Positions 14 to 16,950 of a stretch of DNA of 24,632 bases are shown here, piece by piece. A program made the translations under genes and the position numbers. Source of the stretch: a virus. The notes under the pieces are model-generated. The model was not told the origin of the DNA, did not search any database, and saw only the letters and a program-made list of their open reading frames with translations. Positions within the stretch are counted from its first letter, which is position 1; each line of letters opens with the position of its first letter. The stretch covers positions 1 through 24,632 of the IMG/VR virus record IMGVR_UViG_3300022074_000359; one strand, given 5' to 3'.

Positions 14-625
14 ATGGCTTTAGGTTTGACAACAGAAAGTAAACCCGCAGGAGATATCCTGCCAATCGTGAAATATTCTGCGCAGTCTGGTGACTTTGTC
101 AGGGTCGACCGCTTCCAAACGAGCGACGGCACTTGGGACAAGTCAGAGGCCGAGCTGGAGTTCCCGGTAAAGATCGCAATGGACTTGGAGAACATCGAGG
201 TCGGGTGGATATCATTCGCCAGTGGCGCTCCAGATTTTGTTATGACCAAGCTGGGCGAGGCAATGCCGACACGCCCCAGTCAGGAACACAGTCAGGGTTT
301 CCGGGTGCGCATTGGCTCCAAGGACTTGGGCCTGCGTGAGTTCTCACACTCAGCCAAGACTGTCACCAAAGTGATGGACGCGCTGCACACGCAGTATGAG
401 GCCGAGGCCAAGGCCAATGCAGGCAAGATGCCAATCATTGAAATCACCGGCACCGAGCGCGTGACCGTGGCAACGCCAAAAGGCGAGAACGTTTTCAAGG
501 CGCCAAAGTGGTCAATCACAGGGTGGGTCGACCGGCCTGAGATGTTTGACGCTACGCAGGAAGAGGCAACCCCTCCCGAAGCCGAAGCTGCGCCAGCAAC
601 GGATGACGATCCGCTGTTTGATTAA
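14..625 (+). CDS. Candidate phage ssDNA-binding protein, acidic C-terminal tail
   Basis: This 203-aa protein probably coats single-stranded DNA at the replication fork. The assignment rests on context and tail rather than on a recognised fold. The body (about residues 1-175) looks globular and is rich in beta-type sequence. Residues about 180-203 are an acidic, Ala/Pro-rich disordered tail ending DDDPLFD. Such tails end bacterial SSB (DDDIPF) and T7 gp2.5, where the tip binds replication partners and competes with DNA. Here an extra Asp follows the Phe, which is atypical. The start is ATG 14, with AAGGA at 1-5 as ribosome binding site. The gene lies just before the primase-helicase and is separated from it by a strong terminator, so it may be transcribed in excess of the helicase. 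Alternatives are another early DNA-metabolism protein or a nuclease inhibitor. Confidence 0.55.
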   Translation: MALGLTTESKPAGDILPIVKYSAQSGDFVRVDRFQTSDGTWDKSEAELEFPVKIAMDLENIEVGWISFASGAPDFVMTKLGEAMPTRPSQEHSQGFRVRIGSKDLGLREFSHSAKTVTKVMDALHTQYEAEAKANAGKMPIIEITGTERVTVATPKGENVFKAPKWSITGWVDRPEMFDATQEEATPPEAEAAPATDDDPLFD

Positions 626-684: not shown

Positions 685-2502
685 ATGACAAATAATATCG
701 CGGCACACATTGAGACGGTCGCAAAACATTATTGGGGTGAGCCAAAGGAACGGCGCGGCCACACGCTGCGCTGGGGCAATCGCGGCTCAAAGGAAGTCGA
801 CTTGCGCAAGGGCACTTGGTTCGACTTTGAAGACAATGTCGGTGGCGGGGTCGTTGACCTTGTGCGCCAGAACGAGGGCGCCCAGCTCGGCAGCATACCT
901 GACGTGCTGGAGCGCAAGTTCGGCATACCAAAGCAGACACAGAAATCTATCAGCCCGGCTCAGTTCTTGAGCAAGTGCTACAACTATGTCGATGCGCAGG
1001 GCGAGCTACGCTATCAGGTGCTGCGCTACGAGCCCAAGACATTCAGGCAACGCAGACCCGACAGCAATGGCGACTGGATTTACAACATGAAGGGCGTCGA
1101 GGCGTTGCCGTACAACTTGCACGGCATCCTGTCGCGCCCGGACAAAACTATTTTCGTGGTTGAGGGTGAGAAATGCGCAGACAAACTCATCGAACTGGGC
1201 GCAGTCGCCACTACGTCACACGGCGGTGCAGGAAAGTGGAAGGCAGAACTCAACAAGTTCTTCGGCGGGCGGCGCGTTGTCATTTTGCCCGACGCCGATG
1301 ACGCGGGGCAGATGCACGCCGACGTGGTGACAAGTCATCTGGTCGACGTGGCCGGTGAGGTCAAGCGCATCGATTTGCCGGGGCTATCCGACAAGCAGGA
1401 CGTGTACGACTGGTTCAGCAATGGCAACACGGTCGATGACCTACGCCAGCTCGTGTCAGGCACTGAAGCCGTCACAGAGGCCAGCGAGGTGACAACCGAG
1501 GTGGCCGAGACGGACACGCCGGACGTGTTCCCGACCTATAATCTGTCCTACCTTCGCAACATGCCGCCACCCAAGTGGCTTGTCGATGGCCTGCTGACCG
1601 AGTTCGGGTTCGGCGTCATTTATGGCGAGCCCGGAGTTGGCAAAAGTTTTCTGTCGCTGGACATAGCCCTGTCCGTTGCGTATGGCCGGGCGTGGCACGG
1701 GGCTCCCGTGCAGCAGGGCGCGGTGCTGTACATTGCCGGTGAAGGCGTGGGCGGCCTCGGCAAGCGTGTCAAAGCGTGGCAACAGCATGTGGGCATCGAG
1801 GCAGACGCGCCGATGTTTGTGTTGCCAATCGCTGTGCATATGACGGAGACTGAAGAGGTCGAGAAGCTGTTGCGCACCATTGACAGCCTGCAACAGGACT
1901 TCAGCCTGTGCATCATCGACACGGTGGCGCGCAGCCTGCTGGGGGACGAGAACTCCAGCTCTGATATGTCGGCCTTCGTGACCGCTTGCAACGCCGTACA
2001 GCGCCATATCGACGGCGCGGTGATAGGTGTGCATCACGCCGGAAAAGACGCCACAAGGGGCATGAGAGGCAGTACGGCGCTTCTGGGCGCTGTTGACGCT
2101 GCCCTGCGGGTCAAGAAGGAAGACGACGGCCTGTTGTTGCAATGTGAAAAGCAGAAGGACGCAGAGCCGTTTGAAGACATGCAGTTTGATATGCTGCCCA
2201 TTGCGATGCTGGGCGACAGCTCCCTCATCATCCAACGCACCGAGGTCGAGCGGCAGGACAAGCGCCGGGCCAAGCTGACCACAGACCAGCAGATTGCTCT
2301 GGACAGTCTGCACGACGTGCTTGCGAAAGAGGGCTCCGACAGGTGCAAATTGGACATCTGGAAGGCCGACCATCGTGTGAAAACTCCTGATTTGACGGCG
2401 GGTAAGCGCAGGGATGCGCGGGCTGCATTGCAGTCAAAACGTGTGATTTTCATCGACGAGGGAATGGTCATATTAAACAGAGGGTTAGGTCAAAATGTGT
2501 GA
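685..2502 (+). CDS. Primase-helicase (Toprim + RepA-like AAA ATPase)
   Basis: This 605-aa replication protein joins a primase-like half to a hexameric-helicase-like ATPase. Residues 1-65 resemble a primase N-terminal module (WFDFED...GGGVVDLV) but carry no zinc-binding cysteines. A Toprim domain spans about 150-240, with the acidic residues of VEGEK (159-163) and PDADDAG (202-208). The RepA/AAA_25-like ATPase spans about 285-490, with Walker A GEPGVGKS (314-321), Walker B LCIIDT (408-413) and a sensor-like HH pair (450-451). The last 75 residues look like a winged helix and may bind DNA or a loader. The start is ATG 685, with GGGAG at 673-677. It probably unwinds DNA and lays primers for a polymerase encoded outside the window. 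Whether primer synthesis is retained without a zinc finger cannot be told from sequence. Confidence 0.88.
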   Translation: MTNNIAAHIETVAKHYWGEPKERRGHTLRWGNRGSKEVDLRKGTWFDFEDNVGGGVVDLVRQNEGAQLGSIPDVLERKFGIPKQTQKSISPAQFLSKCYNYVDAQGELRYQVLRYEPKTFRQRRPDSNGDWIYNMKGVEALPYNLHGILSRPDKTIFVVEGEKCADKLIELGAVATTSHGGAGKWKAELNKFFGGRRVVILPDADDAGQMHADVVTSHLVDVAGEVKRIDLPGLSDKQDVYDWFSNGNTVDDLRQLVSGTEAVTEASEVTTEVAETDTPDVFPTYNLSYLRNMPPPKWLVDGLLTEFGFGVIYGEPGVGKSFLSLDIALSVAYGRAWHGAPVQQGAVLYIAGEGVGGLGKRVKAWQQHVGIEADAPMFVLPIAVHMTETEEVEKLLRTIDSLQQDFSLCIIDTVARSLLGDENSSSDMSAFVTACNAVQRHIDGAVIGVHHAGKDATRGMRGSTALLGAVDAALRVKKEDDGLLLQCEKQKDAEPFEDMQFDMLPIAMLGDSSLIIQRTEVERQDKRRAKLTTDQQIALDSLHDVLAKEGSDRCKLDIWKADHRVKTPDLTAGKRRDARAALQSKRVIFIDEGMVILNRGLGQNV

Positions 2503-2605
2503 TGAAAAAAGGCAAGTTTTCACATATTATGTGACGATCACACAAAGTGTGTGTGATGTGATCCCCCCTATAGGGGATCACTTTTCACATATCTCACATT
2601 TCACA
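2498..2605. promoter_or_regulatory. TGTGA/TCACA repeat cluster, candidate operator array or origin
   Basis: Nine copies of TGTGA or its complement TCACA lie in 108 bp: TGTGA at 2498, 2530, 2552 and 2557, and TCACA at 2520, 2538, 2585, 2594 and 2601. Several pair into palindromes: TCACATATTATGTGA (2520-2534, seven bp each side of one base) and ATCACAC/GTGTGAT (2537-2543 with 2551-2557). A longer hairpin follows at 2558-2581. The block fills the gap between the primase-helicase and the next gene, two genes before a winged-helix protein. This matches what is known of iteron origins and of repressor operators, and the sequence alone does not decide between them. Two further TGTGA words occur inside the end of the primase gene (2376, 2442). 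Confidence 0.55.
2558..2585 (+). terminator. Hairpin with short T run, possible terminator
   Basis: GTGATCCCC (2558-2566) pairs perfectly with GGGGATCAC (2573-2581) around CCTATA and is followed by TTTT (2582-2585). The core also reads as a perfect 12-bp palindrome, CCCCTATAGGGG (2565-2576). The T run is short, so it is a weaker terminator than the others here and may instead be a protein-binding site. It lies 35 bases before the next start codon. Confidence 0.45.
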
Positions 2606-2615
2606 GGGGTAAGTG

Positions 2616-3182
2616 ATGCGTAAGCCAAACAGAGGGATTGAGAAGCAGATGGCACCGATGGGGTCGGTGAACCACCGCAAAGTGCAGTCGGCGTTGATCG
2701 AGTTTGATAGGGCTGTGACGGACATCGAAGACCGGTGGGGCGTTGACCGCTTGCCGGAGCTGGTAGACCACAATCTGCGGGAGAAGTTCTACAAACAGCG
2801 TGAGCGTCTTGATGCGGCGATACAGTCCGATGTCGGGACTGAGGTGCAGCGTGAGGCAGAGGTGATGCTGAAGGGCTACAAGCACCTGATCAAGGCGGCA
2901 GAGGTAAACGGGTTTGCAGAGCTGACCGGCGAGGTGTGGGAAGCCCAGATGCCAGACGGACGTGTGCTGGCTGTAGCCAAGACCATTGACGAGGCTAACA
3001 AGGCTGCCCGCGACAATCGGGATATGGTTGTGTATTCGATGGATGAGATGGCCCGCGTGCTGTGCGGGTGGGAAGAGTTTAAGCTGGCGACAATGGCAAA
3101 GCATACGTTCCCCGGTGCCGAGGTTGTTGAGATACGCGAGCGCAACACAGAGGAGCTGAAAGATGACGAACTCCCTTTCTGA
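2616..3182 (+). CDS. Unknown 188-aa protein with SSB-like DDELPF tip
   Basis: I do not recognise the family. The protein is soluble and charged, with a basic N-terminus and a long helical segment around residues 15-95 (FDRAVTDIEDRWGVD...EVMLKGYKHLIKAAE). A second domain of about 90 residues follows. It ends in TEELKDDELPF, nearly the same as the SSB C-terminal tip DDDIPF that recruits replication partners. The start is taken as ATG 2616 because AGGGG at 2605-2609 is well spaced from it; a GTG at 2613 would add one residue. The last 20 bases overlap the start of the winged-helix gene, so the two are probably translated together. Its place among replication genes and its tip suggest a role on DNA or at the replication fork, but this is inference. 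Confidence 0.8.
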   Translation: MRKPNRGIEKQMAPMGSVNHRKVQSALIEFDRAVTDIEDRWGVDRLPELVDHNLREKFYKQRERLDAAIQSDVGTEVQREAEVMLKGYKHLIKAAEVNGFAELTGEVWEAQMPDGRVLAVAKTIDEANKAARDNRDMVVYSMDEMARVLCGWEEFKLATMAKHTFPGAEVVEIRERNTEELKDDELPF

Positions 3183-3810
3183 ATGGAAGCGACCGTACAG
3201 CGTGTGTCCGTTCCGGGCCGCTGCTGACCGCGAGCTGAAAGAGACGGACTTGAGAGTGCTGATGGCACTGTGTGCGTTCACCAATCGTGCCGGTGTGTGC
3301 TGGCCTTCGATGGCAACGCTGATGGAGTTGACCGACCTCAAGTCGCGCACGTCCATCGACAGGTCAATGCGCAAGCTGAAGAAGCTGAAGTATGTCAGGC
3401 AGCTTGAGGCCAAGGACTACCAGAAGACCAAGACCGGCTGGAAGACGAACAGGTATCAGGTGTTGTGGGAAGTGGATATGGCGTTGCCCAGTCTTGAAGA
3501 GGTACACATCGCCAAGCCCTTGCAGCTCGTCAGTGACCAAGACGAGGTGCCTGAAAGTGAAGGGGGTCTGGGGGATGTAGAACCGTGTATGCACACGCAC
3601 GCTGAAGCCCTCGCCCACGGGTTCGTGCGTGCCGTGCAGCAGGCGACCGGCCAAGTGCTGCTGGTCGACAACGTGGTCAATCACGCGCGCCGGGTAGACG
3701 AGAGCGTGACAGTCGAGCAAGTGATGCAGGCCACGCTGACCGTGTGCCGCGCTCGGCTTCAGGCAAGGCAGGGGGTGCCCAGCTTCGCCGACGTTGCAGA
3801 GGTGCTGTGA
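3163..3810 (+). CDS. Winged-helix DNA-binding protein, possible replication initiator
   Basis: This 215-aa protein has a helix-turn-helix module at about residues 20-75: a helical run (LKETDLRVLMALCAF), then CWPSMATLMELT, then a basic recognition-type segment (SRTSIDRSMRKLKKLKYV). This resembles the HTH_36-type winged helix found in plasmid and phage replication proteins and regulators. The wing-like stretch (residues about 80-105) is also basic. The C-terminal half is unassigned. The start is ATG 3163, with GAGGAG upstream inside the preceding gene. The gene is the last before a strong terminator and lies downstream of the TGTGA cluster, which it could bind as initiator or regulator. That link is untested. 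It could equally be a transcription factor for early or late genes. Confidence 0.65.
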   Translation: MTNSLSEWKRPYSVCPFRAAADRELKETDLRVLMALCAFTNRAGVCWPSMATLMELTDLKSRTSIDRSMRKLKKLKYVRQLEAKDYQKTKTGWKTNRYQVLWEVDMALPSLEEVHIAKPLQLVSDQDEVPESEGGLGDVEPCMHTHAEALAHGFVRAVQQATGQVLLVDNVVNHARRVDESVTVEQVMQATLTVCRARLQARQGVPSFADVAEVL

Positions 3811-7963: not shown

Positions 7964-8258
7964 CACTCCAGCTTGGCAACGTAAGGCAGGCAAGAACCCC
8001 AAAGGCGGTTTGAACGAAGCGGGCCGCCGGTCTGCTCGTGCGCAGGGCATGAACCTCAAGCGCCCGGTTAGGTCTGGCGACAATCCGCGCCGTGCGTCTT
8101 TTTTGGCTCGGATGGGCAACATGCCGGGGCCGGAGCGCGACAGCAAGGGCAAACCCACGCGCCTGCTTTTGTCTCTCCGCGCTTGGGGCGCGTCGAGCAA
8201 AGCAGACGCCAAACAAAAAGCCGCAGCAATAAGCAAGAGGAACAAAGCCAGTGCATAG
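7956..8258 (+). CDS. DUF6321-like small phage protein
   Basis: This 100-aa basic protein has the string AWQRKAGKNPKGGLNEAGRRSARAQG, followed by RRASFLARMGNMPGPERDSKGKPTRLLLSLRAWG. I recall this as the DUF6321 pattern, found in many marine phages. The function is unknown. It often travels with the DUF5824-like gene just upstream, as here. It overlaps that gene by 8 bases and the portal gene by 8. Strong positive charge suggests nucleic-acid contact, possibly in the capsid, but this is inference. Confidence 0.7.
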   Translation: MGSTPAWQRKAGKNPKGGLNEAGRRSARAQGMNLKRPVRSGDNPRRASFLARMGNMPGPERDSKGKPTRLLLSLRAWGASSKADAKQKAAAISKRNKASA

Positions 8259-9813
8259 CGTTGAAGAAATTATGAAACGTCACGCGGTCGCGCAGCGCCG
8301 CAAAGACAACTGGCGGCAGATTTACGAAGACTGCTACGAGTTCGCCCTGCCGCAGCGCAACCTGTATGACGGTTATTACGAGGGCGGCGGCTCGCCGGGT
8401 CAGAACAAGATGGCTCGCGTTTTTGACAGCACCGCCATCAATGCGACACAGCGGTTTGCCAACCGCCTGCAAGCTGGGCTGTTTCCTGCCTATGCTCAGT
8501 GGTGCCGCTTAGAGCCCGGCCCCGACATCCCAGAGGATCGTCGGCTGGAAGCTCAGATGGCACTGGATATTTATGCAGACAAAATGTTTGCGCTTTTGCG
8601 CCAGACAAACTTTGACCTAGCTATGGGCGAGTTCTTGCTTGACCTTGCAGTGGGCACTGCTGTCATGTTGATACAGCCCGGTGACGACCTCACGCCAATC
8701 CGCTTCACAGCAGTGCCGCAGTATCTGGTCGCCATTGAAGAGGGCGCCTATGGCAAGGTGGACAACATCTATCGCCGTATGCGTATGAAAGGTGAGGCGA
8801 TAGCGCAGCACTGGCCTGACGCTGAGATACCGCCGCGCCTGCAACGCATGATTGATGATAAGCCTACGGAAGAGATAGAGCTAATCGAGGCCACGTTGTA
8901 CATGCCAAACGAAGGCGACTTTTGCTACCACGTCATCTGGCCGGAAGGCAAAGACCAGTTGCTTATGCGCCGCATGAAGTCCAGCCCTTGGGTTGTGGCT
9001 CGATATATGAAGGTCGCTGGCGAAGTATACGGACGCGGGCCATTGGTCACAGCCATACCCGACATCAAGACGCTAAACAAAACACTTGAGCTGCTGCTCA
9101 AGAATGCGTCGCTGTCTATTGCCGGTGTGTACACCGCCGCCGATGATGGCGTGCTGAACCCGCAAACCATACGCATTGCTCCCGGTGCGATTATACCTGT
9201 AGCGCGCAATGGCGGCCCGCAGGGTGAGAGCTTGCGCCAGCTACCACGTTCTGGCGACTTCAATGTCAGCCAGATTGTGATTAACGACCTACGCATGAAC
9301 GTCAAAAAGATTATGCTCGATGACACGCTGCCGCCCGACAATATGTCGGCTCGTTCAGCGACTGAGGTTGCCGAGCGCATGAAAGAGCTGTCGCAAAACT
9401 TGGGCTCTGCTTTTGGGCGCCTAATCAATGAAACGATGATACCGATGATTTCGCGCATCCTGTACGTTATGGACGAGCGAGGACTAATTGAGTTGCCTCT
9501 CCGGGTCAACGGCCTTGAGGTTAAGGTGACGCCAGTGTCTCCGATTGCGCAGGCACAGAATATGGGCGACATCGAGAAGATCATGCAGTGGGTGCAGCTA
9601 TCGTCTGCGCTTGGCCCGCAGGGTCAGATTGCAGTCAAGACAGACAGCATATCAGACTACGTTGCTGACAAACTCGGCGTGCCTGCTGATTTGAGAACCA
9701 CGCCGCAAGAGCGCGAACAAATTTTGGAGCAAGCAGCGCAGGCTGCTGAGATGGCAATGCAGGCAGAGGGCGGCGGCGCGCTCCCCACCGAAGAGCCGCA
9801 AGAGACTTTATAG
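8251..9813 (+). CDS. Portal / head-to-tail connector protein (T7 gp8-like)
   Basis: This 520-aa protein matches the podovirus head-tail connector family (T7 gp8 type), which forms the dodecameric ring at one capsid vertex through which DNA enters and leaves. Characteristic stretches are NWRQIYEDCYEFALPQR (about 20-36), VFDSTAINATQRFANRLQAGLFP (about 56-78) and PPDNMSARSATEVAERMKEL (about 365-385). The length fits the family (about 500-550). The last 40 residues are Ala/Gln/Glu-rich. The start is GTG 8251, with AGAGG about 10 bases upstream; an ATG at 8272 is an alternative. It is the first gene of the head module, and the next gene starts 3 bases after its stop. Confidence 0.92.
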   Translation: MHSVEEIMKRHAVAQRRKDNWRQIYEDCYEFALPQRNLYDGYYEGGGSPGQNKMARVFDSTAINATQRFANRLQAGLFPAYAQWCRLEPGPDIPEDRRLEAQMALDIYADKMFALLRQTNFDLAMGEFLLDLAVGTAVMLIQPGDDLTPIRFTAVPQYLVAIEEGAYGKVDNIYRRMRMKGEAIAQHWPDAEIPPRLQRMIDDKPTEEIELIEATLYMPNEGDFCYHVIWPEGKDQLLMRRMKSSPWVVARYMKVAGEVYGRGPLVTAIPDIKTLNKTLELLLKNASLSIAGVYTAADDGVLNPQTIRIAPGAIIPVARNGGPQGESLRQLPRSGDFNVSQIVINDLRMNVKKIMLDDTLPPDNMSARSATEVAERMKELSQNLGSAFGRLINETMIPMISRILYVMDERGLIELPLRVNGLEVKVTPVSPIAQAQNMGDIEKIMQWVQLSSALGPQGQIAVKTDSISDYVADKLGVPADLRTTPQEREQILEQAAQAAEMAMQAEGGGALPTEEPQETL

Positions 9814-15322: not shown

Positions 15323-16950
15323 TGGCAGAGAGACTTCCCAGATACAGACCACTAGGCGCCCGCATCGCGCAAGTGCCGCGCGTTGATTACGCGGCTACTG
15401 CGCGCGCGCAGGCTTCGGCCTCTACTGCTATTGCAAGCGCGCTCGACCGGGTGAATGATTTTGCGTTTGAGTATGCCAAACTTGAGGCCGTTGAGTATGG
15501 CGTCGAAAACGCGCCGACAGCACAGCAGATTGAGGACGCGCAGAAAACTGGCGCAGAACTTGATTTGCCGACAGGTACTATTGCGCGAGCTGCGGCCCTA
15601 GACGTTGTTTACAACACGATGTCCACCGCAGCGCGCAGCGAAATCACGCTTCTGCGACAAGACCAGGAGAATAGGCTGCTTTCTGCGGAAGACTTTGCAA
15701 ACAAGATAAACGCCGTCATCAATGGCTACGCAACGACACTGGCCGACTTGCAGCCCAGCGTCGGCGCAAAGTTCAAGGCGGCGATGTCTGTAGAGGGCAA
15801 CACGTCTTTGCGTGCGCATTTGGCCCAAGCAGTCAAGCTGCAAACAGAGCAAGACAGGGCGGCGCAGTTTGAAACGTCGCAAAGTATTATTGATGGCATC
15901 CCAGAAATAATGGCAGCAGGCGCGTCTGTAGGTGAGGACGGGACGGTGCGCACTGTGTTTGACCAGATTGCAACAAAACGCGCCGACATTATGGGGCTGC
16001 ATCTTTTGACTGGCACGGAAAGAAACGGTTCTTTAACTAAGTTTGACGAAGCGGTCGACAAAGCAATCAGCGCGCAAGTCGTTGACTGGATGATGGCAGA
16101 CCCTACACACAGCGAACAATTCTTGACCGGCGAAATCGAAGACCCAAACGTCAAGATGATTTACGAAGCACTAGACGATGTCGAAAGAATAGACATGATG
16201 GTGGCGTCTGGCAAAACCGCCGCAGAGCTTGAAGCGGCGAGCATTGCGTTCTCTGAGGCGCAAGGAAAAGCAAGGGATGTGCGAGCTTCCGAAGCGGGAA
16301 GATTGGCGCACGTTGCTCACTTAAATAACGACCCAGAAGAGTTTGAAAAGCAAATGGCTTTGGTTAAGCAGCTAGACCCGGACACTTATGAAAACATAAA
16401 GGACGCGACGGTCTACCAAGACACCAAGACCGTGCCCGACGTGTTGGCAATGTTGCGACTTCTTCATTTCGATGGGCGCCTTACTCAAAAGGACATTCTT
16501 GATAATGCGGAGTTTCTTTCTCAGCCTGACCAAAAATCACTGTTAGATGCTATCAACAGTCAGCGCGACGACGATTACAAGGTTGCGATAGCTATGGCAC
16601 GCGAAAAGTTTGCGGTGCCCGACGGCATTGTCCTAAACCCCGCAGCAGAAAAAACAAAAAAGCTGACAGCATTTCAAAGTAAGCTGCTACAAGCAATTAA
16701 GAAAGAGCCGGGCCTAGACAGAGTGCAGTGGGCCGAAGAATATCTTGCAGGACAGTCACGCCCTGTGTCTGAAATTATGGATGATTTGGAAGCGCGGGCT
16801 GTAGCACTAAAAGGCTCAGAGGGAAGAAACTTTCCGGGCGAAGCAAATATTGAAAACCTCAAAAGATTTATTGCCAGCGACAAGGCGTCTAAAAATATCA
16901 AAGCCAAAGTTCAGGCACTGCTTGAAGAATTAGAGGCGGCGCAAAAATGA
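15322..16950 (+). CDS. Internal virion protein, gp15-position helical protein
   Basis: This 542-aa protein is almost wholly helical, with Ala/Glu/Lys/Asp-rich coiled-coil-like segments throughout (for example 50-75 and 290-320). It begins with a basic segment (MAERLPRYRPLGARIAQVPRVDYAA). No enzymatic motif was recognised. By position and character it corresponds to T7 gp15, a core protein that assembles on the portal and forms part of the periplasmic tube during DNA entry, although it is shorter (T7 gp15 is 747 aa). The start overlaps the previous stop by one base (TAATG) without a clear binding site, so coupled translation is likely. The end overlaps the next gene as ATGA. Confidence 0.65.
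   Translation: MAERLPRYRPLGARIAQVPRVDYAATARAQASASTAIASALDRVNDFAFEYAKLEAVEYGVENAPTAQQIEDAQKTGAELDLPTGTIARAAALDVVYNTMSTAARSEITLLRQDQENRLLSAEDFANKINAVINGYATTLADLQPSVGAKFKAAMSVEGNTSLRAHLAQAVKLQTEQDRAAQFETSQSIIDGIPEIMAAGASVGEDGTVRTVFDQIATKRADIMGLHLLTGTERNGSLTKFDEAVDKAISAQVVDWMMADPTHSEQFLTGEIEDPNVKMIYEALDDVERIDMMVASGKTAAELEAASIAFSEAQGKARDVRASEAGRLAHVAHLNNDPEEFEKQMALVKQLDPDTYENIKDATVYQDTKTVPDVLAMLRLLHFDGRLTQKDILDNAEFLSQPDQKSLLDAINSQRDDDYKVAIAMAREKFAVPDGIVLNPAAEKTKKLTAFQSKLLQAIKKEPGLDRVQWAEEYLAGQSRPVSEIMDDLEARAVALKGSEGRNFPGEANIENLKRFIASDKASKNIKAKVQALLEELEAAQK

Follow-up and report, generated by a model that had tools for sequence, protein, structure and literature searches.

The stretch of DNA analyzed here (the window) is a 24,632-base virus record, IMGVR_UViG_3300022074_000359, which is a genome fragment of a podovirus-like phage (head-tail connector at 8251-9813). 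Near its left end, the gene for a 605-residue primase-helicase is followed by an array of nine TGTGA/TCACA words, an open reading frame referred to by its position (ORF 2613-3182) and the gene for an HTH_36 protein. The features of this region are listed in Table 1. On the plus strand the words start at 2498, 2530, 2552 and 2557, and on the minus strand they start at 2520, 2538, 2585, 2594 and 2601. The first word (2498-2502) includes the stop codon of the primase-helicase gene, while the rest of the array is intergenic. Plus-strand words adjoin the left side of a GC dyad inside the array and minus-strand words adjoin its right side. An earlier reading of the letters alone (the sequence-only reading) had drawn attention to this cluster, to its palindromes and GC hairpin and to its neighbors, all of which we found as described, and had considered both an iteron-type origin and a multi-site operator.

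Table 1. Features of the array region in the window (positions in the window; empty cells, nothing given).
Feature	Position	Strand	Remarks
SSB-like protein	14-625	+	upstream of the helicase; weak match, no Pfam match
Primase-helicase, 605 aa	685-2502	+	primase-like N-terminus, RSF1010-RepA-like core, C-terminal winged helix
C-terminal winged-helix domain, proposed iteron-binding domain	2269-2484	+	codons 529-600; AlphaFold models
Recognition helix AGKRRDARAALQS	2398-2436	+	codons 572-584; residues 573, 576 and 580 covary with the word
A+T-rich left flank	2440-2540		60-68% A+T compared with ~40-47% upstream (40-bp steps)
Array of nine TGTGA/TCACA words (iterons)	2498-2605		most of the gap between the primase-helicase gene and the next gene
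15-bp palindrome TCACATATTATGTGA	2520-2534		two opposed words; read from sequence
GC dyad (hairpin) GTGATCCCC-CCTATA-GGGGATCAC	2558-2581		inside the array
ORF 2613-3182	2613-3182	+	follows the array in all loci of the array-helicase family holding both
HTH_36 gene (O-like replication protein family)	3163-3810	+	HTH_36 and O-like family matches

Across the whole window the word is not abundant (40 copies of TGTGA/TCACA compared with 53.7 expected from shuffles), and the window holds one array of it. The claim that nine copies in 108 bp are beyond chance was borne out, as nine were counted exactly, 80 Markov simulations of the whole window gave at most 4 copies per 108 bp and none of 20,000 sequences obtained by shuffling the 108 bp themselves reached nine. 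When all 5-mers were allowed, however, GC words were as dense elsewhere in the window (CGCGC 11 and GCCGC 10 copies per 108 bp, in low-complexity clusters at 15366 and 23449). Given these equally dense GC words, density alone is no proof, and the decisive evidence comes from comparison with relatives. The single-strand fold of the array region beat 200 of 200 shuffles (z = -4.9). The dyad is absent from the list of terminator-like sites in the window, and the possibility of an intrinsic terminator was rejected for this reason. No Rfam family matched the window at gathering thresholds. Compared with the sequence on either side, the array region is rich in A+T, and its A+T-rich left flank is a possible strand-opening region, as suggested by its composition. 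We also noted a 10-bp direct repeat, AAACAGAGGG, flanking the array at 2475-2484 and 2627-2636 (152 bp apart); both copies lie in coding sequence and may be a coincidence.

The sequence-only reading had staked its claim on conservation of the array in related phages. A search of IMG/VR with the primase-helicase found 51 loci (51-100% identity); from the 476 relatives detected by a profile search, the 80 best were retained. In nearly all loci holding the region (loci are given L numbers below), down to ~50% helicase identity, an array of the same layout lies directly 3´ of the helicase gene, and the position is kept in dozens of relatives. The word itself varies by lineage (TGTGA, TGCGA, TGAGA, CGATAC-like, GCAACC, ACCCCAC together with TGCGA, and GGTAAG) and is replaced throughout each array. 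Despite the change of word the spacing is constant, with ~20-22 bp across the dyad and tandem pairs 5 bp apart, and the first gap is ~19-22 bp in most word classes. Nearly all relatives have a dyad core of the CCC-TA-GGG type, and those arm bases that are not part of a word vary in concert on the two sides. In 51 of 65 loci no 6-mer cluster anywhere in the locus was denser than the array; the other loci mostly hold mixed arrays, and in the window itself the array was beaten by one low-complexity stretch. Four loci (L075, its near-copy L076, L106 and L125) do not, as far as checked, hold the stretch before the homolog of ORF 2613-3182 and are uninformative. The change of word extends to the helicase stop codon, where CGA (from TGCGA) or AGA (from TGAGA) replaces the TGA of the window's GTG TGA, such that the helicase gains one or two residues (...NVRL, ...NVR) with these words, as in L027 and L097. 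Two contigs from bacterial metagenome-assembled genomes (MAGs) also matched the primase-helicase. One of them, L124, belongs to an uncultured Opitutae MAG and has an 81% identical helicase and the same word, a possible hint at the host or a possible binning error.

The core of the primase-helicase matches RSF1010 RepA (sequence E-value 3.7e-7 over residues 293-467) and AAA_25, with a fold match as well to RecA-fold hexameric helicases like 1g8y/1nlf, and matches neither the DUF927 nor the D5 family. Its C-terminal 70 residues fold as a winged helix in AlphaFold models of both the whole protein and the domain alone (domain pLDDT, the model confidence score, ~90). The domain was modeled alone because the structure search with the full-length protein was dominated by RecA-fold helicases. 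The nearest solved folds were the winged-helix domains of ORC1, Cdc6 and archaeal ORC2 (Z ~10), with a Foldseek E-value of only 0.014 for the ORC1/Cdc6-like match. This match between a model and solved structures reflects a shared fold and is no proof of function.

The changes of word were then set against changes in the protein. A tree built from helicase residues 1-515 shows at least 10 changes of the word, and TGCGA arose twice, on well-supported branches. The contrasts available were between sister lineages with different words, TGTGA/TGCGA twice and TGTGA/TGAGA once. Residue 573 lies where the recognition helix begins and shows a fixed difference in 3 of 3 contrasts (G-to-S in both TGCGA contrasts and S-to-R with TGAGA). 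In both TGCGA lineages residue 580 becomes D or N and residue 587 changes from V to A, while residue 576 changes from R to S or A with TGAGA. For the closest contrast, TGTGA/TGAGA, 6 of the 10 fixed differences in 605 residues fall in the winged helix (p = 3e-4). Among 45 loci with TG[T/C/A]GA words, each combination of residues 573, 576 and 580 is paired with one word only, and in independent-pair tests all informative pairs agree in direction. For the recognition helix the partial correlation of distance with word mismatch, with helicase residues 1-515 held constant, was 0.51, and for the winged helix it was 0.39, compared with -0.18 for ORF 2613-3182, -0.17 for the HTH_36 protein and about 0 for the protein encoded upstream. 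By these sequence comparisons, word switches track the C-terminal winged helix, above all residues 573, 576 and 580, and the covariation supports a binding specificity of this domain for the word.

Two loci document a joint change of domain and array. L097, which has TGAGA, is placed among TGTGA phages on the helicase tree, and its helicase DNA is mostly 85-95% identical to that of L098 (TGTGA), but identity drops to 40-80% from the last 400 bp onward, through the array and into the sequence that follows it. With L096 (TGAGA), in contrast, the minimum (~46-76%) lies in the 5´ half of the helicase gene; identity climbs through the 3´ half to 83-91% across the winged helix and early array, and drops once more in the next ORF. 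From this pattern, it looks like the winged helix and array of L097 were exchanged together by recombination, although the left breakpoint is not sharp, given that the rise toward L096 starts upstream of the winged helix. L112 (about 3300-3760) has an unrelated helicase C-terminal domain and the unrelated word GGTAAG, yet its dyad is of the same kind and the gene that follows is the same, which makes it a natural domain swap.

A DNA-level search of cultured phages with the array region gave no match. Fifteen cultured phages with RepA-like primase-helicases were examined, and an array was clear in 7 of the 15. These phages have unrelated C-terminal domains, and a word array with a central dyad adjoins the helicase gene. 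The words are GGCGGAGAT for Rhizobium phage RHph_N65, GGCTGGAAA for Roseobacter phage CRP-406, TGGGAACG for Rhizobium phage RHph_Y3_1, CGGTACA for Idiomarinaceae phage 1N2-2, GGTTCA for Alteromonas phage PB15, ACTACAAA for Roseobacter phage CRP-823 and GCGGGACA for the E. coli phage PaulFeyerabend. Members of the PB15/1N2-2 family likewise differ in their word along with the C-terminus (GGTTCA, GGTACA, GCGGTATT and GTAACA). A two-sequence profile (A5) gave 8 loci, while a profile of seven distant helicases (A4) was too divergent for scanning.

Collectively, these observations make it likely, on sequence evidence, that the array is the replication origin of the phage and that the upstream primase-helicase is its initiator, its own winged helix at the C-terminus serving to read the 5-bp word. 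The iteron-type origin envisaged by the sequence-only reading is thus well supported, the array keeping its place in relatives, and the array, with its short iterons on either side of a GC dyad, is very probably that origin. The array, the constancy of its position, the replacement of its word throughout and the covariation of the recognition helix can all be read in the DNA itself; we infer physical binding, melting, self-loading and origin activity. Several primase-helicase subunits would use the C-terminal winged helix to bind the words to the left and right of the dyad, assemble at the dyad and melt the adjacent A+T-rich DNA. The RepA-type helicase ring would be placed on the single strands, with the primase-helicase loading itself, and priming by the same polypeptide would follow. 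An additional autoregulatory effect on downstream genes is possible.

Several observations weigh against this interpretation. In L120 (word GTGTGA) and L122 (GGACA) the array lies before the homolog of ORF 2613-3182, with the helicase gene several kilobases away, and L120 also violates the rule for residue 580 in having D580 with TGTGA. One clade (word class F; L086, L095, L113-L115, L082, L087, L105, L109, L116-L119 and L123) has mixed or degenerate arrays, with TGCGA words beside ACCCCAC/CCCACC words, and may have two specificities or be in transition. With 2 to 5 pairs, from about five independent word switches, the per-residue sign tests cannot reach 0.05. The adjacent helicase core also correlates with the word (partial r 0.35, controlled for the N-terminus), probably due to linkage. 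Seven of the fifteen cultured phages examined (Mae-JY30, GB2A, MW202711, Bas76, Vibrio 1225, Mahdia and Donny) have no array beside the helicase gene, and an eighth, PSKM, is ambiguous. Finally, GC skew shows no turn at the array, which is uninformative for a window that is a genome fragment.

The strongest alternative, though an unlikely one, is the multi-site operator, in which the primase-helicase or another phage protein would bind the array and control transcription of the genes from 2613; such a site would serve for autoregulation or as a late switch, whether or not it is also an origin. Consistent with such a role, the array is always just 5´ of the homolog of ORF 2613-3182 in the array-helicase family, even in L120 and L122, and a sigma-70-like sequence was found inside the array at 2502-2530. 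This promoter-like match is weak (9/12), however, and at least nine words with a conserved dyad exceed the usual operator. In RHph_N65, moreover, the array sits between convergent genes, where no operator is needed and for which an origin is therefore the better fit.

Neither of the separate candidate binders in the window, itself a genome fragment, tracks the word. The sequence-only reading had singled out the winged-helix (HTH_36) protein, which could act as an O-type initiator binding the array given its matches to HTH_36 and to the O-like replication family and the closeness of its gene. The relatives do not bear this out, and we regard it as very improbable. The recognition region of this protein is identical in L034 and L043, whose words are TGTGA and TGCGA, there is no parallel change with the word, the partial correlation given above is negative, and in L039, L040 and L112, all of which keep arrays, the stretch between the flanking genes yielded no HTH_36 gene. 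The HTH_36 protein was thus rejected as the reader of the word, which is tracked instead by the winged helix of the helicase. A word-reading role for the product of ORF 2613-3182, with the helicase winged helix covarying by linkage alone, is no more credible, even though this gene is the most constant neighbor of the array. It shows one fixed difference in the TGTGA/TGAGA contrast compared with ten in the helicase, its partial correlation is likewise negative without parallel changes, and identity between L097 and L096 drops over this ORF while the winged helix and early array are shared. That the words are host CRP/FNR-type sites (TGTGA-N6-TCACA) or a functionless chance cluster can be practically dismissed: TGTGA/TCACA is the half-site of CRP, but the opposed words are not 6 bp apart and relatives hold TGCGA, TGAGA, GCAACC and other words in the same layout, while conservation in relatives excludes a chance cluster.

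The remaining genes of the region offer further points of interest. The product of ORF 2613-3182, which belongs to no Pfam or NCBIfam family, ends in DDELPF, resembling the acidic C-terminal tip of bacterial single-stranded DNA-binding protein (SSB), and its homologs have the tip [DN]D[DEKN][IL]PF or a close variant of it, with one listed exception (L030) in which the contig ends there. As speculation, the tip could be a docking motif recruiting host replication proteins. The protein encoded at 14-625 occupies the position of genes annotated as single-stranded DNA-binding in phages CRP-406 and CRP-823 and has an acidic tip at its end, DDDPLFD (in relatives, DDLF); it is likely the phage SSB. 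Downstream, the DUF6378 protein encoded at 3932-4207 matches PHROG families labeled phosphofructokinase, which looks like an annotation error.

If the array and the primase-helicase do form an origin and its initiator, the origin and the initiator domain can be predicted for a large set of uncultured phages, as well as for Alteromonas phage PB15, Idiomarinaceae phage 1N2-2, Roseobacter phages CRP-406 and CRP-823, Rhizobium phages RHph_N65 and RHph_Y3_1 and E. coli phage PaulFeyerabend, and RepA-type helicases would join the few kinds known with their own origin-binding domain. The TG[T/C/A]GA series, with recognition helices differing at few positions, is a natural test of a protein-DNA recognition code, and the joint change of word and domain across relatives is a natural data set on the evolution of origin recognition. 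More tentatively, these phages could represent a widespread new class of replicon, in which a RepA-type primase-helicase (DnaB/RepA superfamily) with an interchangeable origin-reading domain loads itself without a separate initiator or loader, and in which word and domain co-diversify as a cassette; we find this conceivable but somewhat short of probable. Such diversification is possibly driven by pressure from origin-targeting rivals or by the avoidance of cross-replication.

No description of such an arrangement for RepA-type phage primase-helicases was found in the open-access literature, and the comparisons below are with systems that share parts of it. The alpha protein of phage P4 unites primase, helicase and an origin-binding C-terminus, with origin sites ori and crr, and in this respect resembles the primase-helicase with its proposed origin-binding C-terminus, but the P4 helicase core is of the SF3 type. 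With lambda O and the O proteins of Stx phages the system would have in common a phage-encoded initiator and iterons, and an HTH_36/O-like protein is encoded nearby. The lambda replication gene that holds iterons is O. In contrast to the iterons of lambda, which lie inside the replication gene (PMC11447400), the array here is intergenic and tracks the helicase rather than the O-like protein. RSF1010 has a hexameric helicase, RepA, an iteron origin and a dedicated primase, with helicase, primase and iteron binder being three proteins, RepA, RepB' and RepC (PMC2200642). The RepA-type helicase core and the proposed iteron origin are alike, whereas helicase, primase and proposed iteron binder are here in one chain. 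In the PLE satellites of Vibrio cholerae the origin-binding domain of RepA covaries with the iterons, and the module of binding domain and origin has apparently been swapped more than once (PMC8263062), which is similar to the covariation and swapping described here. PLE RepA, however, belongs to the RepA_N initiators, with its binding domain at the N-terminus and three iterons of ~30 bp (PMC8263062), and is no primase-helicase.

By analogy, the closest working analogs of the pair of array and helicase are Rep of SaPI, with its ori, and Cch2 of SCCmec, with a putative ori, both from mobile elements of Staphylococcus. The C-terminal domains of these helicases, which are of the DUF927 and D5/Primase_Cterm families, recognize iterons directly downstream of the gene, the iterons of Cch2 being the 5-nt AAGTG (PMC7581432). 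Likewise, the window and its relatives, with the exceptions of L120 and L122, have short repeats directly downstream of a helicase gene whose product has a predicted C-terminal winged helix. The differences are that the core here is of the RSF1010-RepA type, with a primase-like N-terminus, rather than DUF927/D5, and that the array has 9-11 words around a GC dyad. The superfamily of RSF1010 RepA is distinct from that of the SaPI Rep and Cch2 helicases. The system described here would thus work like the SaPI Rep and Cch2 replicons without membership in their helicase families.
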